A stretch of 64,000 bases of DNA. Source: Acanthochlamys bracteata. Lineage: Eukaryota > Streptophyta > Magnoliopsida > Pandanales > Velloziaceae. Shown in pieces: positions 14,801 to 64,000 of the stretch (position 1 is its first letter; every line of letters starts with the position of its first letter). The stretch is from NCBI GenBank assembly GCA_019914995.1, contig CM034145.1:2976001-3040000 (forward strand), in the 5' to 3' direction. A program made the translations under genes and the position numbers. Below the pieces are notes generated by a model. That model searched no databases. It was not told the DNA's origin and worked only from the letters and a program-made list of their open reading frames with translations.

Positions 14801-17800
14801 ATTGCCAATACAGTATAGCACTACAAGATGTGTTTTCCATGAAGGAAATTATAACCTTAAAAAGGACGTGTACCCAACAATCCAAGTATGGCCTAAATTG
14901 TAGATGGCAAACCAAAGTTGGAATTTAAAACCTATTATAAGCTTGGCAGATAGTGGTATAACTACATATGAGGTTAATACTAGCTGTAGTTTGACAACAG
15001 TACCGAAACAAGTAAAATAAGCTACAAAACTAGCTTTTCAAGAGTTAAAACCAAGGACAGATGTAAGAAATCATGTTTTACTATATTGCAAACAAAAGCA
15101 TGGCAAAAGGCAAATTAGAGTCACCTTACAGATATTTTTCCAGTTATAGAATGGGATCAGATTTCAAGAATAAAGATCTTTCTTCAAAAATATAATTTAA
15201 AAAAAGCATAAACTTCCCCTGCCAGCCTAAAATGACATCTGAAAAGTACTTCCATGTTAAACTCCTACACAAGTTTGTCACATATATGAAAAAGTTTCAA
15301 ACAAATATATGAAAAAGCAATCATAAAATTTTTAAGATAGTAGGCATGCACAGTGTTGCAAAATTCAACTTCAACCAATTTTTTGAATATAAATAGGAAG
15401 CCAAATACAGATATGCTTTCCATGACAGTTTTCCAGTTCTTTCCTCCCTTTCTTCTGTCTTTAAATTAATTCTAGCTCTAAGGTAATTCTGTAGCTTAGA
15501 CTACAGACAGCATTCAAATTAAGATAGATACCAAGTTTATTGGAGATAATCTCATACTAAAATGTGTGGTGAGCTTCCTGTAATTATATAATTATACAAA
15601 ACATTAAATTATATATGAAGTTCGTCCACCAATTGTCTCATTCCAGCTGAGGAAATTGAAGTAACATAACAAAAATATTAGGAAGCAGTGAAGAAAGCAT
15701 ATAAATTCAAATAAAAATAGGAATAAGAATGTGATGCCGCAACTCAGATACCTATAAATAGGTTCAAATGCTTGCAAATCCTCTCTCTCAACAGTCCTTG
15801 GACACATAGGGTGATGGGCAAGAGCATGGACCAAATATGCAAGGATACACTCTGGGTAATTAACCTGAGAGCTCATGTCACCTTGCAAGAGAAGCTGCCG
15901 CGCTCTCAAATGATGACATATTTGAACAATTTCGCATAAACTATGTTTTGCCTGGTAAATTTGTAAAATGCAAGCAAATTATAGTGAGACAACAAAGTTA
16001 TGAAGCATAAGTTAAGAGTTTGTCACATATAGAGAATGTACTAGAATATACCTCATTAAACTCAGGGGAACCACGTTCACTTAAGTTAAATAGGAAGGCA
16101 CAAGCATACTTAGGATCTAACAGCCTCTCCTTTATGTATAGTTGTAACTTAGAGAGAAAAATTTTCCTAGATTCAGGATAGGCATCCTAAGAATCAACAA
16201 AACCAATGTTAAAAATAATCTGAAATAAGTTTTACTGATCGATTACATATGGTTGAAGGAACAGCTAAAAAAGAGTCAGAATTTGCAGTGAAGTGCTTAA
16301 AGTCTACCTCTGATATTCTTAAAGTCATATAAAAGACATCAACTGGAATTTTATGATCCCACTGCCTTGATAAATGCAAAACAGATTTTGCCGCAGCAAG
16401 CCGCATGTGAGCCTTATCAACAGTGCTGCAAGAATGTCACATGAGAGAGGACTGAAATGAAATATGCATATATCATCGAGGAGGAAGTTGCGCTCTTAGG
16501 TACCTTGCTTCAATAGTGCTCGAGATATCCCCGAAGGATAGAATGCTTTTAAGGATATCTACAACCTTTTCAATACCTTGTCGTAAATGTGCATCTCTTA
16601 CTGGCAAATAGCTCTTTACTAATGTTTTAAGACCATAAATCTGCAGAAGAGAAAAGCATACAATGAGGTATAGCTAAAAAGCCAAGGAATACCAACCAGA
16701 AGTTCCAATCCTGACCTTCAACTCACAAAGTGTAGTCCTCTCATTCCAGTCAGTTTTCTCTGCACTTCCACTGGTCTTCTGGCACATTGATACAGAATAT
16801 CAACATTCATCGTTCAAGTTGCATATTAGCATGTGTATAGAGCTGAAGTGCAAAAAGAACTCCTTACCTCACTGCACTCCAAGATTTTGCTCATAATGAA
16901 CCTAACAACCTCATCCTCTCTAGTTTCAAACACTGGCATGGCAGTCTGAGCAATACATGCGAGTGATTGCAATATAGCTGGTAGATTTGTCTTCTCTCCT
17001 AATGTGTCCACAATCCTCTGTAACAATCATGCACAGCTGAGTATAACCACAGAAATCTTTAACCGAAAACCTATACTAAATCATTGAACTGCAGCTCCAG
17101 AACCTTATATAGAACAGATAACGACTTAAGGCCCTCGTCTTTAGTTATTGCAGCTAATGCATGTACAGCATACTTCGCTTGCTTTCGACTGCCCTCAATG
17201 CAGAGTCTTTCAAGCAGTAAGTCCACAGAACTGCAATAAAATCCAATAGTTTCATTATAAGAGAAAAAGTGTCTATAAACTAGAGAATCAACACTGGGTT
17301 TAACTTGGTCGCACCTTGATGCCATCACCAACTTTTCCCTTATCGTTCCACCAGATTTTGCAAGTACATGAGCAATACCTTCTTTAATAATTTCGTTATC
17401 CTCTTTCAAAAGTTGAACAAGATCTTCTTCAGACCCAGCGAGAAGCTGGGGGCAAAAACAAGCAATAATCTGCAATGTTTTTAAAGGAATTAACTCTAAG
17501 ACTGGATGGGGCTAATAGTTCAAGATAATTATAAAATGGCCTAAACTAAAGCAAGTAAGAGTTAACAATATGCCAAGGATAGCATCAAAGGTTCATATCA
17601 GCCAAGCTATTATCTGACCCAGGCATTCAGACCCTCCCAAATGAGGCTAGACTTCTTTGACCAATCATGTGAATTTCCTTGCAACACTCATACCAAACGC
17701 ACATGATAACTGGAGTTGTATTTTTACAACTACTTCACCCTTAGTCCTAGAAAAACATCACCTATGTTTATAACTACTTTGCCCTGAGTCCAAGAAAACA

Positions 17801-20800: not shown

Positions 20801-23800
20801 TTTCACACGCAATAAACCCAGTAACAGTAATGCAGAATGGAAAAAAGGTACAAGTTGAATTTTGGAATATAGTTGCAAGTTTGCAAGTTTTCCTTTTTCA
20901 ACATAACACTCTAAAACATTTTTTTAATTTTTTTAAATAAATACCATTGATTTAAAGTCACTACAATATCACCGCCGGCCTTATGATATAACCAAACCCA
21001 ATGCAAGTTCTGACAAATGATGGAAATAAGTTACATAAAAGTAGTCGTCTGTAATCAGCCAAATAAAATAATACCTGAAATCCTTATCGTATAAGCAGCG
21101 CAATATCTTTCCAGGTATCCACCAGAAAGCATCATGACCCAAAGCTTCAGAGATCCTCAAACAGTTATTTTTATATAATTCTGCCAACCTCTCCATGGTA
21201 TACTTTTTAACAGATATCTGCAGAAAAATGAAATTGACAGTACGCATTGTTATACAAAATAAACAAAAAAAGTAAAATGACAATTTAAAATATGAAAAAG
21301 TGAAGTTATCTACAGATTTGTCACGCAGGCGTTCCCCAATTAGCCTAATAGCCTCAGCAGAAACAACATTTGATGAGGAGCAAGCCAGATCACAGAGTGC
21401 ACCAACAACTTGTTTCCGTACAGCTTCATCATAATCTAGCAAACGATCACATAGTGACTCTGCATTGTAGAATGTCATTCTGTTGTCACATAAAAAATTG
21501 CAAAAACTGCCACTTGAACATATCACAATGTTAACAGGTAATGACAACTTTTCCCTTACTAATGATCTGAGGAGCTTCAGGTCTCAAATGATTAGAGAGT
21601 AGGCAATTCTTTACATGTTCAATAACACACAAACGTACTTCCACAGCCCTATCAGTCATCCTCTTCAAAAATTCAGAAAAAAGAGACTGAAATGGTTGTG
21701 ATGCTGCACTCCCAGATGAAGCAAATAGGTCCCCGAGTAACTGCACTGCTTTTAGCCGTACATCTAGCTTATCTGTCTAAATATGTTTGAAAATGAGTCA
21801 CAACATGAGTTACAACATCATGGGTGTCAGGTAGAATACTCCACATAACAGCACAGAAATAAAAACTCAAAGGAGAACATGATTCTTGAAAGCTCTCAAA
21901 ATAATTGACTGTGCTAATAGCATTTGGTACACTTGTGATCCAAAGTACCTCAAGTATGATGTTAAGAAGCTAATGATGAGAAGTTCAAGGTTGATGCTAG
22001 ACCAACAAGCCACAATAAAAGAGATGCAATTGCTGATGGTTTTACATATATTTTTTTTCCTATTTCATAAGTAAATAGTAAGAACACGAGAATCAGCAGG
22101 TTTGTTTAATACACAACAAATCATCCACAGTCCAGATCTAAGATAGTGAACAAAGTCATGCACTAAGGATCAGATCACTATGACACAGGTGAAGCATGAA
22201 GAGGCAGTAACTTAGATGAGGTGTAATCCTTCAAAATTAATTACTGAAAACTAAGCACCCAGTTTGTACCTTATGCGGCTACTGGAACAGTTACTGCTAT
22301 AATTGTAGCATCAGCTACCAATTTCTCTGTTCACCATAATTCAGATTATCGAAAGTCAACTATCATACACTCAGGGATCCTCCATCATCAAATTTGTCCT
22401 AATATATCTTTTATATTTGCAGCCAAAACTTTCACATAACATGAGTATATTTCTAACTTCAAAAGAAACTTGGTGGAATTCATTATATTAAAATCAATAA
22501 GATAACTAGGTGGGGTAGTAACAAATCCCTAAAATAGTAAGTATAAAGCATGAATAGTCTATTCAACAAATACAAAGCTAATATTTTTTTGAGTAACCTG
22601 GACACTAAACTAGGTAATATCCACCTAAACTACCAAAAATGTAAATTAATGGAATATCTTAGAGTTGCGGATCCTGTCCTCGCACTCAGATTTAGCAGAT
22701 AATGCCAAACGAGAGTACATGCATATTCTCCAACATCATTATCTGAAAGTGCTAGATATGAGTCTCTACGCACTAGGAAATGATATAGCCAAGTACAAGA
22801 GATTTCCGCCATTCTGCATGAAGTTGATGTATCTAGAAGCAGAAGGCATAGAAGCATTCATGCAAGTATAGAAAGTACTGAAGAGATGCTGGCAAGAAGT
22901 ACTTACCAATAATTCTCCAGTTATATATGGAATAATTCCAGATATGATTTGGGGTGCACAATGATAGATGTCATAAATCACTTCATGATGATCGATGGAG
23001 ACGTTCACATAAATGTTATCACCAGAAAGTGATGATATAAGAAATTGCTTGATAAAAGGCTCCAGCTTCCCTGCACATCGTGCAATAACATTCTTGGAAA
23101 GCTTCCGTGCAGCCAATGAGGAGTCCTGTTGTACAGCTCAAAATCCAAGGGAATTTATGTTGCGTTTGAATGTGAACAGTACAGAATTGAAACCAAACCA
23201 TATGCAAATCTATGATTTTCACTTGTAGTTGAAATGACAAAAGCATGAAAAGAGACAGCTGTAACTCACTTTTCCTTTTCGGCCCAAAACTGAGAATAAA
23301 GCAGTTAACCAATTCTCTTGTAGAACCTCACTCTCTTCAAGTATAAGAACCATGATTGTTTGCATCGAAGTAATAACATTTTCTGGATGATCATCGCTGC
23401 ATTTTACACGTTAGGAAATAAACCTCAGAACTTATGGTTAGAATTCGTCATCTAATTGAGAATATATTTCGAAGAATGAAACTATTTCCATCCAAGACGA
23501 AGTCACTTGATAGTGAAATAATCTAAAGCCAGAGAAAGTGTCACAACATACATCCCACCCACTACCACAACCTCAAAAGAAGGACCAAACACTTATCCAT
23601 GGGAAAAATAACCAATGTTCTTGACACGCAAAATAAAGTAACTTTCTTACATAAAATAACCCAAGGAATTAACCAACACAAGTTCAGGAAAGTAAGATAA
23701 TTTGACTGTAAGATAATTTGACTGACTCTAAAGTGATCTGCATCTCATTCCCAAGCCACACTAAATTTCCAAATATCCTGAAATCCTGACAATCAGTACT

Positions 23801-29923: not shown

Positions 29924-30160
29924 CGTTGGATATGAAAAACTATGAGTTTGAAACGTACTAACAAAGTTTTAGCTCAATCGGACCGTGAATTTATTTCGAT
30001 CCGATCATTTGATCAAAATAACAGAAAGAAAAAACCTCATTATATATATTATATTATTTCTTTTATTTTGATCAAGTAACTGGATGGACGTTGATTTATG
30101 GTCCGATTAGGATAAAATTTTGTGAGTAGATTTTTAACTTATTATTTTTCATATCCAACA
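29924..30160. repeat. Foldback (inverted-repeat) element B
   Basis: About 100-base arms (29924-30025 and 30053-30160) are imperfect reverse complements, by eye roughly three quarters identical, around a short A/T-rich loop. The ends read CGTTGGATATGAAAAA on the left and the complement on the right. It could form a long hairpin RNA if transcribed. It codes for nothing. Confidence 0.7.
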
Positions 30161-30366
30161 GTAAATATTAGATTTGGTGTCATCCCAGTTACAAACCAAA
30201 GATGAAGTGCTTTTAGAAAGATAGTAGCCATATTCCTATATATATATATGAATGAAAAAATAGAACATTCATCTAATTTTTTTATTGTGAACGCTAGGAA
30301 TGCATTTAAGGATGCATCTCCAAATATCCTTATAATATACTGAATAAAGAGTGCATCGATAAATAT

Positions 30367-31867
30367 TGTTGAAATCTCCTGCAAGATCAACTCAAGAGGG
30401 GAGGGGGAATTGAGTTGATAAATAAAAATTTTCGTAAAATTTAACGATTCTACAGACAGCAGCGTACAACCGGCTGTTAGTAGTCTTGTATCTTGCAGAC
30501 AGAGAGGGATAGAGTATATAGCAATTTAGGTAAAGAAGAGAGTACTCAGAGTATTTTACGTGGTTCGGCAAACATCTTTGCCTACATCTACGGGTGCTTA
30601 TCACAAGAGCTAAGGCTTCACTAAACTTTTAATAAGCTACACATATACCAAGAGCAAGGTGTTTCACCAAGTACACTTACTCTTAAATGGTTTCTTCACC
30701 AAAACAATCATTCACAACCTACTGGACATCATTGTCCCTCTAGCTGATATGCTAGTTCTATTACAAAGTTTAAAAACTATTACCAAGCTCCAACCGAACT
30801 TCTTTACCAAGTGCACTAAGTACTTCTATCATAAGTTTACAAAGAAAGCTAAAAGAGCAAGGTTAGACATATGATCAATCTCAAAGTAAATAAATGAACT
30901 TCAAATTTTCCGTTGACATGATCAAACTTATTACTGCTGAAGATGATGCTGTGTAAGTGATTGGCAGCAAGAGGAGTTTCTTTACTTGAGAAATTGAATT
31001 GATGTAGTGCAAGTTTGGTTTTAAATTTTTGCTCTCCTCTATTTCATTGTCTCTGTGTCTCTTTACTTCTTATAGAGTTTTTTGTTCTTGCAGGTAGGTG
31101 TTTCTTCTCGTTAGAAAAATATCCGTTGGTTTCTCTGAGCAGTGGTAGACGATTGAAGGTATAAAGTTCAGTGGTCAATCAATTGCTTTTCAATTTCTTT
31201 TTGGCTATTCTGATGCAAGTCTTTCCTCGGCATTAAATGGTCTCTTTCCTCTACATTAAATGAAACGTAGAAAGCAATTTGAAATTTCTGCCTGTTGTCC
31301 TCAATTGTTTCAGCTCAGTTGTATTCTTCAAATTTCTCAAGCTAAGTTGGCTTCTTGAGTTTGCTGTTTCCAGCTAAGTTGACCGCTTTAGACGAGGTGG
31401 ACTTCAACAGCTTGACTATGCTTAGTTGCTTTCTGCTGAGTTTAGTGGGTCTTTTTTTGAAGATTGGACTTGACTCTTCTTGTGAATAAAGATGATATTT
31501 GACTCATTATAGATTTTGTACAGTGTGATTTACTTCAGTGATATGTATATATGTCTATAAGATCTTGAAATGAAAACTTCAGCAGAAACTTCCATGATGA
31601 ACTCGATTCTCTGTTCTGTGCGTCACAGAGAAATCTCATATAGTCAGTAGCTGAGAAGCTGGTTATTGGGTGACTGTGGGATCATCTGTTCTGTATGCTA
31701 TATTTTCTGCTCTTCTCTATTTCAAATGCTCTGTTTGCGATTCTCTGTAGGATAGACTTGTTTCATGAATTTTTACAAAATTTGATTCCAATCATTAGTT
31801 CATCTTAATTCATAAACTATAATTATTAATTATTATTATCATCAAAATAAACCTTGAAGTTCTAATA
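30367..31867 (+). mobile_element. Solo LTR, copy 1 (most diverged)
   Basis: Starts TGTTGAAATCTCCTGCAAGA and is clearly related along its length to the LTRs at 41170 and 50390. Flanked by AATAT at 30362-30366 and 31868-31872, a 5-bp target duplication. No internal retrotransposon region adjoins it, so it is a solo LTR left by recombination. It is the oldest-looking of the three and about 135 bp shorter. The family is probably copia by the TGTT...AACA ends and the GTGGTTCGGC motif, but without internal genes this is an inference. Confidence 0.8.
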
Positions 31868-40000: not shown

Positions 40001-41169
40001 TTCATTATTTATCTGCTATTTAGTTCACATATGTCTATGTAAATATAGCTCTACTATACGGGTGTGACGAGAAAATAAATAAATAATGGCATGAAAGTTG
40101 AAATCGAAAATATAAAATAAGCTACAAAAGATCATTGAAGATATGATAGGGACAATAAATATGACTCCTAACAAAACTTATTAAAACGCTACCTATTGTT
40201 CGTTATACCTTAGGCCACATTAAATTTTCCTTAGGTAATTCTTTTAATTATAGGCGATGCATGTACTTTCTATATTGATAAATGTATAGATTAAATGTTA
40301 TATATATTTACATACTTGCATACTATAAAATAGATAGTTTGATTTCGAGCCTTCATGATGATAATATTTTTTATGTTTTTATTTTTTTCGGTGGGATGGA
40401 GTATGATAAAAATTGTTTCTTTCTATATTATTGAATCTTCACATCTAAACATTACTTTAAATAAATAGCTATGTGACAACTTCACTCTAAAATAAAAGAT
40501 CAAATTCAAAGGAAATAAATTATCAGTTAAAATAATAGAGGGATCAAACTTGCTCCATGTTAGTAGATTTTCAAATTTCCAAAATTGTATAAAATTATCT
40601 TTGACAAATAAAATATCTATGGAAAGTAGAATGGTTGCAGTCTTGGTAGTTCAAATGCGATACTGAATGTGCAAAACATGGTTAGTCACAGCAAATAGAT
40701 ATGAGAAGAATCTAGAAAAATCTTGATGAGGCACTTTGAGTTCTATTTTTGATCTGCCGGCCAATACGACACCTTAAGTGCATGTATTCTCTTTTATGTA
40801 ATGTCATCTCTTAATAGTTCTTCTGATTGGGGTGGTTCGTTAAACGCTATAAGGCTTCTTTGTTAAAAGGAATATACTAGTCAATAAGAGCACAAGAAGT
40901 TCATTGCAAGTTAAAGAGGTCTAAATCTATCATGTTAAGGTAGATGCATATGCTGATTAGATTAAGAAAGAAGTGGAGACTCTTTTTACTTGAAAAAACT
41001 AAGGTAACGCGTAGCTCTGGAGTATTTGAAGTCAATAGTATGGCATGTTTGTAAGATCAATAGACACGTTTATATGACATATGTGAACGAAGGCTTTTAT
41101 GCCTCTAGATTTTCCAACGAACAAGATATTGCATACGCTCTATTGGACGAGTCATGGACAATTAACAAT

Positions 41170-42808
41170 TGTTAGATATTCCTGCAAGATTAACTCAAGA
41201 GGGGAGGGGTGAATTCAGTTAGTCTATAAAAAATTTTATCAAATTCGTTATCCTACTGGCAGAGAGCTAGCAAATGTAGGTGTGTTAATCTTTGTCACCG
41301 CAGAGCCGAAGAGTTAGTGTGTTTCTTGTGTAAGTACCAAAGAGTAGTGCTCAGGATATTTAACGTGGTTCGGCAAAACCCCTTTGCCTACATCCACGGT
41401 CGCTCTATCACCAGAGCCAAAGCTTCACTAGACCTTTAATATGCTACAAATACACCTAGAGCGAAGTGCTTCGCCAAGCACACATACTCTACCGGGTTTC
41501 TTCGCCAAGACAACCCCTACTAGCCTCCTGGACACGCCTGTCCCCATGGCTGATTTGCTAGCACTATTACAAGGTTTAAGAGCTTACACCAAACTCAACC
41601 CGAGCTTCCTTTACCGGTCCATCCAGCACCACCTTTACACTGTAAGTGACAAGTTGCAAGTAAATAAACAAGTATTGAGTGCAGGATCTATCTCATGAAT
41701 GTTGGGTGTTTAATCGGTGATTCAGATGAGATGATCGGAGAGATTGCTGAGGTATTTCTTCAGTATGATTTGCAGCAAGATTTGTTTGTGTGGAGTAGTC
41801 AAGTTCGTGACCGGCAGTGAGAGTTTCTGTGTAGAGTGGTAGAGTTCTTGTATATCTCTTTTTTTTGCTTGTTCTCTCTACTACATTTTTTCTTTATGTT
41901 TTCTCCTGTTTTCTCTATTTCTCAACCACGTTTCCTCGTTCTTTGTGACTCCTTTTTATAGAACATCTTTCTGTGCGAGGAGCCGTTGAGAACGTTCTTT
42001 GTTGGCGCTTTCGGTTCTTCACGCCGAGAAGGAATGGTGTTGTCCAAAGTGGTTCTTCAAATTGTATTTGTGCAAAGTCTTTGTTGCATTGAATCGTTGA
42101 AGAGATTTGAATTTGCTTTATAAACGGTTGAGTGCTTAATTCAGCTAAGCTTCGCTTGAATTTCGGTGGTGATGAGTTGATATGGTATGTCCATAATAAA
42201 TGCGATCTGAGGTTGACCGCTTGACCGATCAAGGACTTTGACCGCTTTCTTTCCTGATTATTGAGCTTCCCTTTTGTGTGAAAGTGAAGATGATTCTAGC
42301 TCTTGTAGATCTTACGTTTGAGGTCCTTGATCCGTTGAGAGTCTGCGTGATTTTTGAAGGTAAGGAAAAAACTTCGTTGCCGTTGAACATATGGGTTTGT
42401 CCCGAACAGAAGTCTCGTGATATGCTTGATAGCCAAACAACTGATCGTAATGTGGTCATTGCATCCTCATCCGTATGTTGTTCTCATCACCTTGATTCGC
42501 CATAGCATGATTATTTGTCATTTTAGCCGTGGCATCCTCTCATCCCGTATGTTGTTTCTCTGTCTGCTGCTTCAGCAAAGAAAGATAGATTATTATCATT
42601 TAGCTGTGGCATCCTCTGTCCCATGTGCTGTCCTCTGTCCAGTATGTAGTAGCATAACAGTTGGTTGTATGATGGCTGTTTTGTCTGCTGTAAATTAAAT
42701 GTTCTTTGTTTGTCTAATCCTGCAGACCTATTTTCAGATTATTAGTCTTATATAAATTATAATTCTTAATTCTTTGTTATCATCGAAATTATCCTTGTAT
42801 TTTCAACA
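41170..42808 (+). mobile_element. Solo LTR, copy 2
   Basis: 1,639 bp, starting TGTTAGATATTCCTGCAAGA and ending TATTTTCAACA. A perfect 5-bp target duplication ACAAT lies at 41165-41169 and 42809-42813. It is closely similar to copy 3 at 50390. It contains an 85-codon open frame at 41441-41698 also present in copy 3. No internal region adjoins it, so it is a recombination product. Probably copia. Confidence 0.92.
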
Positions 42809-46009: not shown

Positions 46010-46532
46010 GGTTATGGAGAATGCCCGTGGTGTGCGAGATCTGGTTTGTATTTCTCATGGCTTCTTGACTAACTCCCCAAGCTCTTCTTTGTCAATCGTG
46101 TCATTGATCTCACTGTCCTTAAAGAAAAGTTCAAGACTCCTACCCCCAACAACCCTACTTGGGAATCCGATCTTTCTGGCATCGACATCTTCATCTCTAT
46201 CAGAGATCCTGAGAAAGAACCCCCTCATTACTGCCAACACCATCTTCTCCATCTCGCTGATGACTACCCAATTGAGAAGTTGTCTTGCTATATTTCTGAT
46301 GATGGTGGCGCGCTGCTTGCCTTCGAAGCAAAGGCCGAGGTAGCCTACTTCGCAAACTTATGGGTACCATTTTGTTGAAAAGATAACGTCAAACTGAGGA
46401 ACCTTAATAGTTACTTCAACTTGAAGAGGGATCCTTATAAGAATGAAGTTCCGATGCATTTCGTGAAGGATGGCCAAAGGGTGAAGAGAGAGTACGATGA
46501 GTTCAAAGCCAAGATTAACGGGTTGCCGGATG
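46010..46532 (+). pseudogene. Cellulose synthase-like D (CSLD) pseudogene, 5' piece
   Basis: CSLD proteins are membrane glycosyltransferases making beta-glucan in tip-growing cells. The plus strand carries a typical CSLD segment: [11 protein letters not shown], then [32 protein letters not shown] (with the first catalytic D-D), [17 protein letters not shown] and [18 protein letters not shown] stop directly after W-V-P-F-C (TGA where the family has an arginine codon) and at least one frame change show it is dead. The CACTA element at 46533 interrupts the match right after G-L-P-D. Confidence 0.85.
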
Positions 46533-46999
46533 CACTATTACAAAAATATCTTTACCGACTGAAAAATATAGACTGAAAAAATAGTCGATAAATCTATCAA
46601 ATACTGACAAAAAATAATCTACTCAGTAATACTTTTTAAAAATACCTACCGAAAAGTCAATAAGTCGGTAAATTAGAAACTTTATGAACTGAAACACGAT
46701 CTAGTTGATAAATTTATTAAGCAAATTTATATTTATAAAAATAGCGATGAAACTTAATTAGTCGATAAATTTACTGACTATCATATATTTAATCGGTAAT
46801 TTTATCAATCATAATTATTTTAATAGCTAATTTACCAACTGAAACACTATCCGATTAGTAAATTTATTAAGCAAATTTATATAATAAAACAATTAGCGCC
46901 TGAAATGTGTTTAGTTGGTAAATTTATAGACTACTATGTATTTAGTCAGTAATAGTATCTACAAGAATTATTTCAGCAGCTAATTTATCCACTAAGTTT

Positions 47000-47640
47000 T
47001 ACTTGAATCGGTAGTGTAACAAGAGTACAAATACTGGTTGCTGGCTAGTCTCTCCCTCTCCGGCTCCGGCTTCGAATTCTCCTCCACGACGTGGTTCCAT
47101 CTCACGCGTAATTTCTCCTCATCTGTCTCCGAAATTTCTTCTATTCTATATCCAGTCTGCTTCTCGTCCATCGTCGTTGTCTTTATCTTGGGCACACGAT
47201 CTCAAGAATCAAAAACTTACTTCTCCTCCTTTATCGCCATACTCGAGAAAATCTTAACATAATCAAGCCGCTCTACGTCAGGGCTTCAAAACACTATGGA
47301 GGTAAATTGCGGTTCACCGAACCGCTGGGCTCGACGTGAAAAATTTGCCCTACTGAAATGGTACTGTCTACAACACCTTGTCATATTAAAGAGTTTTAAA
47401 ACCCGTAAGCTGTGGTAAGCTTACCGTCGAGGTTAAAAGTTGTTTGCCGGCGGTTTGGAAAGAGTAGGTCAGCCTTGTTGACGGTTGCTGCGGCTGTCAC
47501 CACCAACTCTTCTGCGAAGAAGAGATGACTCATTGCTACAGCAGCAAGACGGAATACAAAGCGCCATTGCTCATTGCAAACGCTCCTTGAAACTCCAAAA
47601 GGTAGTTTTCTTTGTTCTGATTCTCACACATAGCATTTAA
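47000..47640. other. Captured, unidentified host-like sequence in the CACTA element
   Basis: Less A/T-rich than the element ends, with open frames on both strands (for example 47195-46992 minus and 47038-47262 plus) and a GTAG donor-like site after 47601. It resembles a 5' leader plus first exon of some gene, but neither strand gives a family I recognise. Confidence 0.35.
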
Positions 47641-48150
47641 GTTCTTTGAATAACAGAGCTTTGATCTAGCATAACAAACTTCTCTACTCTATTTCTTTTC
47701 TTTTTTTTGCTTGATTAGAATTTTCATACGAGTAAATAATGATTCTAGTTTAAATTGTGTGCTATTAATTTTTTTCGTGTTTTTCTTTCTTTATATTGCC
47801 GGGCATATAGCTGTTTTTTTCAGGTGTGACTATTAATCTAATGGTTTTTTTGTTCTTATCAAAAGATATTTTAAAAATTTGTTTAGTGAAGAGCATTGAT
47901 TAAGCTAAATGATTCTTGGAGATTTCTAGTTAGACCGGTGGTGTTGTTTGAGATTTATTGTTGTTGTTGCTGCTGCTTAGCCTAAAAGAAGAAGGAAGAA
48001 TTTTCAAATAGAAGAATAACAACAAAAACCAACAAAGAAAAAGAATGGAATCTCTGATTACATATTATTATTCCACATTCCATTCAAGCACTAATCCAGT
48101 TGTTTACTAATAATTCTAAATTAAATTATTTGGTCTTTTTTGTTTTCAAG
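47641..48150. other. CACTA interior, intron-like
   Basis: T-rich sequence following the donor-like site, with no coding texture. It may be a captured intron. Confidence 0.35.
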
Positions 48151-48591
48151 TTAAAGTTCTGGCATTGCCTGAGAACAAATATTCTGGTGCTGCCTGCTTA
48201 CTTGAAGAGCTAGCCCAAGCTCCCCTGAGAACTGACTACAAGCAGCATCCGCAAGATGAGGTAATACCATTTCCTTCCGCCTATCATGCAAATTGTTATG
48301 AGTCATGCAGTTGTTTGCAATAATCAGCTGAGCCAGTAGGGCTCTGCCTAAGCAAGAAGTTGCATTCAGGTTTAGGTTTGGGGATTGGCTCTTGGAAGTA
48401 GTAGTGTTGCCCCATAGCTGAACTGACAGAAGAGAGAGAGCACAGCTGGAGTCTAACACTCCTGTAAGGCTTTCAATCGGTGGCTGTTCATAGTTTGGAT
48501 CTTCTGGATGTGTGCTTCCAGTTGAGCCTTGCATGTATATTCCAACAAGAATCTTCTTTTTCTGCTTTTCTGGTTGTTTTTTGGACATCAA
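48151..48591 (-). pseudogene. Captured 3' exon piece of an SPL (SBP-box) transcription factor gene
   Basis: A 146-codon minus-strand frame. It contains D-S-S-C-A-L-S-L-L-S, the hallmark of miR156-regulated SPL genes, and nearer the end F-S-G-E-L-G-L-A-L-Q, typical of the SPL9/SPL15 carboxyl end. The SBP DNA-binding domain is absent, so this is only the last-exon part. The first ~20 codons (M-M-S-K-K-Q) probably come from the junction rather than from SPL. The frame is open to its TAA. It sits inside the CACTA element, head to head with the AP2 piece. Confidence 0.7.
48424..48443 (-). promoter_or_regulatory. Canonical miR156/157 target site in the SPL piece
   Basis: The minus strand reads GTGCTCTCTCTCTTCTGTCA, the standard plant miR156/157 site in SPL mRNAs, encoding the A-L-S-L-L-S motif in frame. 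Every base of the standard site is kept. A minus-strand transcript of the CACTA element would carry it. Confidence 0.85.
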
Positions 48592-48592
48592 G

Positions 48593-48690
48593 GTTTATGA
48601 TAAAGCGGCTATCAATGCAATGGAAGAGATGCTGTAACTAATTTTGAGCCTAGTGCTAACGAAGAGGGATTGCTTTCTGTTGGCCGTAAG
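48593..48690 (+). pseudogene. Captured AP2-domain exon piece (AP2/TOE type)
   Basis: After an AG acceptor, the plus strand reads Y-D-K-A-A-I-N, then in a second frame D-A-V-T-N-F-E-P-S, matching the AP2 repeat motif [20 protein letters not shown] of AP2/TOE-type factors. One base is out of step between the two halves, so it cannot be read through. Only about 30 codons remain. Confidence 0.65.
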
Positions 48691-49409
48691 GAAAGTACAA
48701 GAAACATCCTAAATTTGTAATTTCTTTTAATACATATTTCTTTAGTCAACTTATTTAGGTAATTTATCAAATACTTTTTTATTAAATTGGAGTGTGATTA
48801 TTTTCTGTAGTGTTTTGAGCATTAGTTACTTTGAACCTTCACATTATGCAAGTGGGAGAAACCTGTGGAAGGTATTTTGTGTTTTGCCAAGTCGTCAAGA
48901 AATTCAGTACAAAAATGATGATAGTTTTAATAGATCATCATTGTAAAATTTGGTGATTATTGATGTTGATAGATATATATAATATTATATATAATTCGAT
49001 GAGGATATATTGAATATTGTTTATTATTTTAATGAAATCCTTCTTGAATATTGATGTATGTATTAGAATATGTCAGGTAATTAACATATAAAGTTTGATG
49101 TATGTATGTATTGAATGTTTCTTCAATATTGATATATGTATGTACATAGAATAGGATCTTACATTACCGACTAAATGGTGTAGACAGTAATTACCGACTA
49201 TTTTTTTCAATCGGTACTTATCGACTGCAAATTTAGTCGGCAATATAGACTATTTTAATTAGTCGATACTTACCAACTATGAATTCAGTTAGTAATTAGC
49301 GACAACATTCTTTCGTCGATATTTTGGTCGATAATTTTTTTTGTCGACTGATTTTTGTTAGTTGCCCGACTATTTTATTCAGTCCGTGGAGAGTTTATTT
49401 TTAGTAGTG

Positions 49410-49572: not shown

Positions 49573-50389
49573 TAGATTTGTTAAAATATAATCGGCAGTT
49601 TGTTTATATAAACGAAAATAAACAAACATTGTGGACGAATATGTTGTATTTACGGATAAGTTTTCTTATTCTTCGTTTCTTGGACAATTTCTTCTTTTCT
49701 TCTTCATCTCTAGTAACAGCATGGATCACCGCCCTCCGAAGGCAGTGGAGATCTTATTCGACGATGATACTATGTCTCCATTAGCATCAAAGAATCCTCT
49801 CCTGCTCAAAGATTCATCGCCGCCGTCGATTTTGGTAATCACCGTTAATTTAAAGAATGATTACCGCTGTAAAGGGCGTGTTTACCTGCACGGTAAACTG
49901 ACTTTAGAAAAAGTTATTTTGTAAAGTGAGTTGAACGGTGAAAGTGGTGTACTTTCTATGTTTATTTTGACAAAAACTGAATATTGAAATTGAGTTTTTG
50001 TGCTTACTTTGGTGCTGAAGTGAAGATCGGGTCAATCGCCAAAGCAAACGCAGCTCTCTGCCTCTCTCCCATTCTTATATCTTCGCTTGTCTTCTTCCCA
50101 CGCCCGCTTCTCTGCGCCGCGTCTTAGTCGAAATTCAAAGGTGATTCCGTCATTACTTGATTTAATCCACCGTTGGGAGCGAATTCAACTAAATCTAGAT
50201 TACAAGTGTGAAATTATTTTTATTTTTTCTAATTCCTAATTTCGTTCTCATTTTCTCTCAAATTCGCTACAAATGTTTTGCAATTCTATTTGAATCTTAT
50301 AGATCTAGTGTTGCTAACACAACATGTATCGTATCCATGCTCCTTCTTCTCTAATTAATAAATTATCTTTTCTCAATCTTTTTCCACTT
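49573..50389 (+). other. Possible 5' exons of the gene split by solo LTR copy 3
   Basis: A short coding-like frame starts with ATG at 49722 (M-D-H-R-P-P-K-A-V-E-I-L-F-D-D-D) and meets a GT donor near 49836. I do not recognise it. At 50030-50140 a CT-rich, leader-like stretch ends at AAAG/GTGATT, fitting a 5' untranslated exon, possibly of the E2 gene to the right. Both are inferences. Confidence 0.35.
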
Positions 50390-52026
50390 TGTTAGATATC
50401 CCTGGAAGATTAACTCAAGAGGGGAGGGGTGAATTGAGTTAGTCTATAAAAATTTTTATCAAATTTGTTATCCTACTGGCAGAGAGCTAGCAGCCGACTG
50501 TGTCAATGCTGTCACCTGCAGACAGAAGAGTTAGCGTGTTTACTGACAGAAGTAGCAAAGAGTAGTGCTCAGGATATTTAACGTGGTTCGGCAAAACCCC
50601 TTTGCCTACATCCACGGTCGCTCTATCACCAGAGCCAAAGCTTCACTAGACCTTTAATATGCTACAAATACACCTAGAGCGAAGTGCTTCGCCAAGCACA
50701 CATACTCTACCGGGTTTCTTCGCCAAGACAACCCCTACCAGCCTTCTGGACACTCCTGTCCCCCTGGCTGATTTGCTAGCACTATTACAAGGTCTAAGAG
50801 CTTACACCAAACTCAACCCGAGCTTTTTTTACCGGTGCATCCAGCACCACCTTTACACTGTAAGTGACAAGTTACAAGAAAATAACCAAGTATTGAGTGC
50901 AGGATCTATCTCATGAATGTTGGGTGTTTTAATCTGAGATTCAGATGAGATGATCGGAGAGATTGCTGAAAGATTTCTTCAGTATGATTTGCAGCAAGAT
51001 TTGTTTGTGTGGAATAGTCAAGTTCGTGACCGGCAGTGGAAGTTTTTGTGTAGAGTGGTAGAGTTTTTGTATTTCTCTATTTTTGCTTGAGTTCTCTCTA
51101 CTTCTGTTTTCTTTATGTTTTCTTCCTGTTTTTCTTTATTTCTCCACCACGTTTCCTCGTTGCTGTGACTCCCTTTTTATAGAACATCTTTCTGTGCAGG
51201 AGCCGTTGAGGAACGTTGCTGTTGGCGCTCGGTTCTTCACGTCAGTGAAGGAATGGTGTTGTCCAGTGGTTCTTCAGCTGTATTTGTGCAAAATCTTTGT
51301 TGCATTGAATGCGTTGAAGAGATTTGAATTTGCTGCAAACGGTTGAGTGCTTAATTCAGCTAAGCTTCTGTTTGAATTTCAGTGAGCTAATGAGTTGATA
51401 TGGTATGTCCATAATAAATGCAGTGCAGGTTGACCGCTTGACTGATCAAAGACTTTGACTGCTTTCTTTCCTTGATTATTGAGCTTCCCTTTTGTGTGAA
51501 AGTGAAGATGATTATAGCTCTTGTAAATCTTCTGTTTGAGGTCCTTCAGTTCGTTGTGAGTGCAGATGATTCTTAAAGGCAAGGGAAACTTCGTTGCCGT
51601 TGAACATATGGGTTTGTCCCGAAACAGAGAAGTCTGCATATGCTTCAGTAGCCAAACAACTGACTGTAATGTGGCTGTTGCATCCTCTGTCCCGTATGTT
51701 GTTCTCTGTCCTGCTTCAGTAGCAGCATAGTAGTTGGCTGTTATTTAGCTGTGGCATCCTCTGTCCCGTATGCTGTTCTCTGTCCCGCTTCAAGCAGTCG
51801 AGCAGCTGACTGTGATGTGGCTGTGGCATCCTCTGTCCCATGTGCTGTTCTCTGTCCAGTATGTAGTAGCATAACAGTTGGCTGTATGATGGCTGTTTTT
51901 GTCTGCTGTAAATTGAATGATCTTTGTTTGTCTAATCCTGCAGACTTGTTTTCAGATTATTAGTCTTATAGAAATCATAGTTCTTAATTCTTTGTTATCA
52001 TCAAAATTATCCTTGTATTTCCAACA
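50390..52026 (+). mobile_element. Solo LTR, copy 3
   Basis: 1,637 bp, starting TGTTAGATATCCCTGGAAGA and ending TATTTCCAACA. A perfect 5-bp target duplication CACTT lies at 50385-50389 and 52027-52031. Very similar to copy 2 along its length. It contains the same 85-codon frame (50659-50916). No internal region. It lies within what may be the first intron of the E2-like gene. Probably copia. Confidence 0.92.
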
Positions 52027-62412: not shown

Positions 62413-64000
62413 CTATTCTAAATTAATAGCTAACTCTTCATCATCATTGTCTTCGTCTTCACTTGTATGCAGATATTCTCTCTCATATCTATTTTTGTCT
62501 TCACCATCAGTTGTATCACCCACTATCAAAATAAAAAGTCACACAAATGTCAATTTCAATTGAATTGCAATAACAAAGTCAACAATGCATCAAACTTAAA
62601 AAATGATTACACTTACTTGCTTTCTTCTTTCTATCTGAATTTTTAGGACAATTTCGTCTGTCATGTTTAACACCGGACTTATTACAGTAAGCACATCTTC
62701 TACCTGTCTTAGCTTTGGCTCTTATAATAGCTTTCTCTAAACCTCCTCTTATTCTAGTACTACCCTTACAAACCCGTATTTCTCTTTTTCGTCTCTTTCT
62801 TTATGAAATGTTGGGATTCAAAAGCAAAACTTCAGAAACATCAATTGGAGCTTGTAAGTTGTTATTGGTAGTACATAAGTCATCAACTGAAATCCTCTTT
62901 ACTTCCAGAAGCCGTCGTGATAATTCATGTAATGTTTGTAACATCATCTGGTATCCTTCATCAGTTTCGGCGGCTTCATAAATCAATTTATTAGAAAGCA
63001 TTTGCAGTTGGGTAGTTCTCAATAATTCAGAATTTTCATGACCACTTATTGGTGCACCATCATACATAGCTCTATATTTGTTAGCGCCCTTCATCCATCT
63101 CTTAAGAATAAACTGATATGGTATTTCTATGTCACGGCTTTGAAAAACCTTTATAAGATGTCCACAAGGAATTCTCATAAACTCAAAAAATTTACAGACA
63201 CAGTTACCTTCCTTTGAAGTTGGATTGAACCTCACCTTCCATTCTCGGCGATCGCCTTCCAAACGAGACTTATAAATATATGTTGTAAAACCATCACCAC
63301 CCTTTTCATCATCATAAAGGACATATTCAGTTTGAGCTTTCTCAAATTTTTTTTTGAATCTGTTGTAAACATTTCTCGTATAAACTTTTGCTGCACTTTT
63401 CAAAAGAAATGCCCCACCATCGACAATGCGACACAAGTGTTCACTAGCATAATCTTCTTTTTTTTCTTTTTCAAAAAGTTTAGTCAAACACTTGTCGTTC
63501 TTCAATACAAACTCTCGAAGGGTAGTTGTTGGTTGAAAAAAATTCTTATAAATAGCATTCATACCTTCTGCACGTCCAGTAGTATTCATTCCCGCATAAA
63601 AAGTATCCCAATGATAAGCTGGTGCCCATTTCTCTCGAATCTCAAATATTCCCCGAAGCCATTCATTGTCTTTTAAATTGTATGTAGATATCAATTCCTC
63701 CCACATTGTTTCAAATGTGCTTGGAATATAATTTTCTCGAATACATGTCTTGATCTCTTTTATGAATTTTGAACTCTTAAAATAAAGATGTGGAAGCTTC
63801 TCAGTAAATTTCTTCATGATATGCCATAAACAAAATCTGTGGCGTGTACTTGGGAATACCTTTGCAATAGCTGTTGTCATAGCTCTGTCTTGATCTGTCA
63901 TGATTGTAGATGGTGCATGTCCGCCCATAGCCGCAAGCCAAGTCTCAAAAAGCCACTGAAAAAATTCCTCTGTCTCATCCAGAAGTAGAGCACAACCAAA
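62413..64000 (-). pseudogene. FAR1/FRS-like or Mutator-like (MULE) transposase gene, partial
   Basis: The minus-strand frame enters from the right edge and runs open to 62801. It has the MULE transposase core (M-T-D-Q-D-R-A-M, F-C-L-W-H-I-M-K-K-F, R-A-E-G-M-N) and a SWIM zinc finger (C-V-C then I-P-C-G-H-L). A TAA at 62801-62803 ends it, yet the same frame continues with a basic stretch and a C-x2-C-x6-H-x4-C zinc knuckle (C-A-Y-C-N-K-S-G). A good donor (GTAAGTG) follows 62617, and an acidic last exon (62522-62413) ends in TAG. Family members have the zinc knuckle, so the TAA looks like a premature stop (CAA to TAA would explain it). The amino-terminal FAR1 DNA-binding part lies outside the window. 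Domesticated FRS gene and MULE transposase cannot be told apart here. Confidence 0.8.

Follow-up and report, generated by a model that had tools for sequence, protein, structure and literature searches.

A probable Pack-CACTA transposon of Acanthochlamys bracteata carrying an SPL gene piece with a complete miR156 target site

Gene-carrying CACTA elements and the present locus

For the Pack-CACTA and Pack-TYPE transposons, the study cited is reportedly that of Catoni et al. 2019. In maize, Pack-TYPE elements have been described as often carrying coding DNA from two or more loci, and Pack-CACTA elements do so most (PMC8903248). In soybean, a CACTA element was found to hold fragments of genes, five in all, which are treated as exons in splicing (PMC1947982). 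Links between transposons and small RNAs have been described in rice, where CACTA elements carry miR820 (PMC3459959) and where MIKKI acts as a decoy of miR171 (PMC5599236, PMC5943564).

We analysed a window of 64,000 nucleotides of A. bracteata (contig CM034145.1 of assembly GCA_019914995.1, positions 2,976,001 to 3,040,000), and all coordinates below are those of this window. The element at 46533-49409 is very probably a Pack-CACTA that carries SPL, AP2-like and exon-like pieces, has no detected transposase and is set in a broken cellulose-synthase-like gene. Pack-CACTA elements carrying scraps of genes are a known kind of transposon, and the present element is another specimen of that kind. 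It resembles the elements described in PMC8903248 in its CACTA ends, in the lack of a transposase domain among the peptides scanned and in coding pieces that apparently come from more than one gene, and differs from them in holding a complete microRNA target site and in a target-site duplication of two out of three bases. The soybean element Tgm-Express1 likewise combines several pieces of unrelated genes, some of them bordered like exons; however, it is 5.7 kb long, its host gene is functional and holds it in an intron, and its pieces have been shown to be transcribed (PMC1947982), whereas the neighbour of the present element is a relic and the element is known from its sequence alone. With the miR820-carrying elements of rice it shares host-gene-like sequence tied to small-RNA regulation, but those elements produce a microRNA (PMC3459959), while ours carries a target site and showed no microRNA hairpin. 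In MIKKI, too, a transposon-derived site serves a conserved developmental microRNA. There, however, the RNA is that of a retrotransposon and the cut-resistant site is made by splicing (PMC5599236, PMC5943564), whereas the site described here appears to have been inherited whole and looks competent for cutting. Among the literature matches listed, none has a title that describes a CACTA element with an SPL piece; most of the matches lie outside this set, and we do not claim that such an element is unpublished.

Ends, insertion site and cargo of the element

The sequence-only reading had proposed an element of 2.9 kb with CACTA ends, and this was borne out. The element is 2,877 bp long and runs from CACTA to TAGTG, the terminal inverted repeats that mark the CACTA (En/Spm) superfamily; 13 of their 14 aligned bases are equal, with a 2-base gap. 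The many short subterminal repeats in both orientations that are a further feature of the superfamily are present as well. Units like TAGTCGGTAA, with at most two mismatches, occur 13 times in the left end (46552-47010, which also contains direct repeats), once in the middle and ten times in the right end (49155-49409); neither the element nor its two end regions are assigned to a strand. The unit was chosen by eye from the element itself prior to the count, and against its 23 copies in the two ends, 500 resampled sequences averaged 0.95 and never exceeded 5. A further 35 copies lie in the remaining 61 kb of the window, which brings the total to 59. The left region also contains a direct duplication of about 160 bp (46681-46993) whose copies are about 76% identical.

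Since the triplets flanking the element are ATG and AGG, the target-site duplication agrees in only two of the three base pairs expected for CACTA elements. No second copy of the element was found within the 64-kb window, and the mobility of the cargo is therefore a presumption; the element would have moved via the transposase of an autonomous relative. Exact patterns of the target site and of the element ends gave no matches in viral and prokaryote collections, which means little because these collections are not of plant origin.

To the left, the element adjoins a plus-strand relic of a cellulose-synthase-like gene (46166-46532), which has in-frame stops, one of them at about 46376, and which matches Cellulose_synt in Pfam (4.5e-11) and cellulose synthase A subunit 3 in the PDB (7.7e-20). 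By eye, the right flank seems to continue this relic; a database match for it was not obtained. The element thus adjoins, and probably lies within, a cellulose-synthase-like gene that is already broken. Several other features were noted in the window. Two direct copies of a 1.6-kb repeat with 88% identity lie at 41169-42808 and 50389-52026, the second beginning about 1 kb from the element, and a diverged copy of the first 440 bases of this repeat lies at 30366-30805. An inverted repeat at 29925-30159 has arms of 106 nt that are 76% complementary and spaced by 23 nt. Minus-strand features are an open frame that encodes MULE transposase and SWIM domains (62801-63928; Pfam 1e-12 and 5.3e-05) and fragments of a gene for PDS5, a protein of sister chromatid cohesion (17071-17475 and 20981-21547; Pfam 1.4e-09 and 4.5e-15).

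A Pfam scan of 15 peptides from the cargo and the flanks (5 + 10) detected no transposase domain, short or degraded remains being possible outside these peptides, and the curated cutoff was passed by the cellulose-synthase-like flank alone. Matches below the cutoff to ribosomal L4 (0.09), Cyt_bd_oxida_II (0.015) and DUF7425 (0.13) were judged to be due to chance, as was the one cytochrome match (E 0.5) of the minus-strand SPL frame in the PDB. Together with the captured host-gene pieces, the SPL piece and the AP2-like piece with its weak database match, the lack of a detected transposase is what is expected of a Pack-CACTA. The earlier proposal of a non-autonomous CACTA element that carries an SPL piece with a miR156 site beside an AP2-like piece is supported.

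The cargo begins with a G+C-richer segment (47038-47601, recognized by its composition and not assigned to a strand), whose scanned peptides gave no Pfam match above the cutoff; a candidate plus-strand splice donor follows at 47602. Further on, an exon-like open piece on the plus strand, VKVLALPENKYSGAACLLEELAQAPLRTDYKQHPQDE, at 48151-48260, here called exon B, is flanked by AG and GT and has no match in Pfam or the PDB. The end piece of an AP2-like domain (YDKAAI / CNGRDAVTNFEPS) lies at 48596-48654 on the plus strand, after a candidate acceptor AG that ends at 48592, and one base is missing between its two motifs, which shifts the frame. Its only database match, obtained with a query that bridges the frameshift, is a weak one to WRI1 (E 0.065 over the full sequence, E 10 for the best single stretch), and it has no match in Pfam. 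Hence the assignment to the AP2/TOE group is largely a presumption, and the AP2/TOE exon piece claimed earlier was not fully confirmed. A miR172 site, as would be expected of a miR172-regulated AP2/TOE piece, was not found in the whole element, where the best penalty was 8.5 (presumed miR172a sequence). The SPL piece sits between exon B and the AP2-like piece on the opposite strand, so that SPL and AP2-like pieces stand head to head, as had been proposed.

A plus-strand splice model that uses 47602, 48150, 48261 and 48592, all with canonical GT and AG, is only a suggestion. By a crude score that uses presumed frequencies, the donors 47602 and 48261 rank 7 and 6, and the acceptors 48150 and 48592 rank 13 and 26, of 130 candidates. 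The plus strand holds stronger sites elsewhere (47823, score 10.9), and sites just as good occur on the minus strand (acceptor 48169, score 9.7; donor 47424, score 8.7). A scan for promoters of the bacterial type, which is inapplicable to plants, gave no clear excess (15 against 11.7, sd 3.7). That the pieces are captured copies is a conclusion which we infer from their fragment character.

The SPL piece and its miR156 site

The SPL piece (GSTGSTHPEDP...DSSCALSLLSVQLWG...ANNCMTHN) occupies 48295-48528 on the minus strand; it was recognized by its frame and by published SPL motifs, and its outer limits are by-eye estimates. Within it, the bases at 48424-48443 match the miR156/157 target site GTGCTCTCTCTCTTCTGTCA as given in PMC3727082 at 20 of 20 positions. 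This is the sole match in the window when up to three mismatches are allowed, and the same pattern was not found in any of 100 shuffles. SPL genes are described as encoding ALSLLS at the miR156 site (PMC3727082). Here, the site is in frame for ALSLLS, and the surrounding frame LDSSCALSLLSVQLWG is akin to the published SPL motifs of Betula (DSTCALSLLSNQTW), Populus (ASDSDCALSLLSSQS) and jujube (CALSLLSSQPT), as expected of a piece of a miR156-regulated SPL gene. The earlier claim of an SPL fragment whose miR156/157 site matches at every base was therefore confirmed. The same exact 20 bases occur in nine of 13 B. rapa SPL listings (counted by eye), and 24 of the 27 bases tabulated for B. rapa SPL15, namely the first 24, are identical.

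Five of the eight residues flanking ALSLLS are the same as in the Betula motif, an agreement that 2 in 300,000 draws of random codons attained; these odds are somewhat flattered because the motif tested was the best-fitting of those compared. For eight other motifs, taken from two further species and from six of the 13 rows of the B. rapa table, the identities are 4/7, 2/5, 4/10, 3/9, 3/10, 3/10, 1/10 and 1/10, the last two being the SPL2 and SPL10 rows. Judged by these residues, the piece resembles some SPL classes well but the SPL2 and SPL10 rows poorly.

A subset of SPL genes has been described to contain a 25-nt element in which the miR156 and miR529 sites overlap (PMC4739381). At 48428-48448, miR529b (presumed sequence) pairs with one G:U and an end mismatch, a penalty of 1.5. 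By its predicted pairing, the site is a combined 25-nt element of the miR156/miR529 type (48424-48448, minus strand) that goes beyond miR156 alone, a detail that is new to this analysis.

The completeness of the site needs no special explanation, because the site is SPL coding sequence. An unconstrained stretch of 20 bases remains whole with a probability of 0.67, 0.36 and 0.12 at a divergence of 2, 5 and 10%, respectively. The intact site is consistent with a fairly recent capture and does not demonstrate selection, and, with the site whole but the AP2-like piece frameshifted, selection on the site keeps a certain plausibility.

Passenger, small-RNA source or decoy

Whether the 20-base match derives from an SPL gene at all has to be considered, since the site consists mostly of CT repeats and the B. 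rapa SPL2 and SPL10 flanks agree so poorly. A chance pyrimidine-rich run is nevertheless almost negligible in probability, given that shuffling never produced the pattern even at three mismatches and that the flanking residues fit other SPL motifs, the Betula motif best. Just as improbable is the reading of the plus strand as a decayed MIR156 gene and not as SPL antisense. Opposite the target site, the plus strand (48424-48443) carries its reverse complement and hence a sequence of the miR156 type, yet a second arm is missing (the window has no target-like match on the plus strand with up to three mismatches), the residues that flank the site on the minus strand are SPL-like, and no mir-156 family match appeared in 47000-49200 at E values up to 10. 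For the last reason, a MIR156 hairpin on the plus strand was rejected.

If the SPL piece is what it appears to be, its RNA could still act in several ways, and the sequence-only reading had favoured two of them, a miR156 decoy and a source of secondary siRNAs. As a decoy, or target mimic, a minus-strand RNA would raise SPL activity. There are precedents in MIKKI and miR171 (PMC5599236) and in lncRNAs of Brachypodium computed to be miR156 mimics, CACTA being the commonest class II element among those associated with lncRNAs (PMC5595811). The site is complete and moderately open in the predicted minus-strand fold (mean unpaired 0.64 against 0.48 for the context), a fold that is otherwise unremarkable (z -0.33). 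A decoy, however, must withstand cleavage, as MIKKI and IPS1 do: in MIKKI positions 11 and 14 are mismatched, and IPS1 carries a bulge of 3 nt where it would be cleaved (PMC5599236). The present site has no mismatch or bulge opposite positions 10-11 of miR156a (presumed sequence); its sole mismatch, as in ordinary SPL targets, is at position 14, and pairing is full elsewhere. Because of the full pairing at 10-11, the predicted RNA would be expected to undergo the cleavage that SPL messengers undergo. With miR156h the mismatch is at position 11 and with miR157a at position 12 (presumed sequences), and these are the mismatches of the standard SPL site. Moreover, the relic, the AP2-like piece and exon B all run opposite to the SPL piece, so that read-through in their direction would yield the antisense of the site and leave the site itself unexposed. 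We hence regard the decoy as very unlikely, and the earlier claim as a weak one. No more credit can be given to an age-gated RNA. Such a putative minus-strand transcript would undergo miR156 cleavage in juvenile tissue but escape it in the adult, and the RNA, with any siRNAs primed by it, would thereby track the phase-change clock and may act back on SPL genes. As to secondary siRNAs, miR156 has 20 nt, whereas such siRNAs are usually triggered by microRNAs of 22 nt, and it should for this reason be a poor trigger. The claim that the RNA is cut into secondary siRNAs is accordingly weak, the counterpoint being the title of one paper, by which miR156 reportedly affects tasiRNA accumulation in moss. 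A broader proposal is that transcripts of either strand of the captured pieces give rise to siRNAs, whether or not started by miR156, and that these siRNAs reach the SPL and AP2-like donors. We consider this possible but rather doubtful, and well ahead of the decoy. A putative RNA of the plus strand would be complementary to SPL messengers, and in maize the gene pieces taken up by Helitrons, Pack-MULEs and Sireviruses have been described as siRNA reservoirs for their donor genes (PMC13317346); rice miR820 lies within CACTA elements and possibly derives from the sequence of its target OsDRM2 (PMC3459959). By these precedents, siRNAs might conceivably affect SPL or AP2 genes. On the other side, Rfam gave no match in the window at the curated threshold. 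With E values up to 10, the region 47000-49200 yielded six matches, of which the sole microRNA family was mir-297 (49098-49150, E 3.4), far below the cutoff. The fold of the plus strand, in a region picked after the fact, is only moderately stable (z -2.2, equalled by 4 of 200 shuffles).

A Pack-CACTA with passive cargo is thus the explanation that we prefer. The SPL piece would have carried the miR156 site along since the site is coding sequence, and at present it would be a passive passenger. If the element were transcribed, the most likely effect would be a source of siRNAs common to the element and its donor genes, and a minus-strand RNA would be no decoy but would be cleaved by miR156 as SPL messengers are.

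Overall, the locus appears as a well-formed Pack-CACTA with a whole miR156 site, also of the miR529 type, and nothing in its sequence indicates a function of the SPL scrap. The element at 46533-49409 is a clear specimen and not evidence that microRNAs gain targets by this route. Gene-scrap transposons can carry microRNA target sites along with the coding pieces that hold them. Many SPL genes have the site within their coding sequence, so that an element which captures that stretch acquires the site whole. Elements of this kind are thus a simple natural route by which new targets could accrue to a microRNA.
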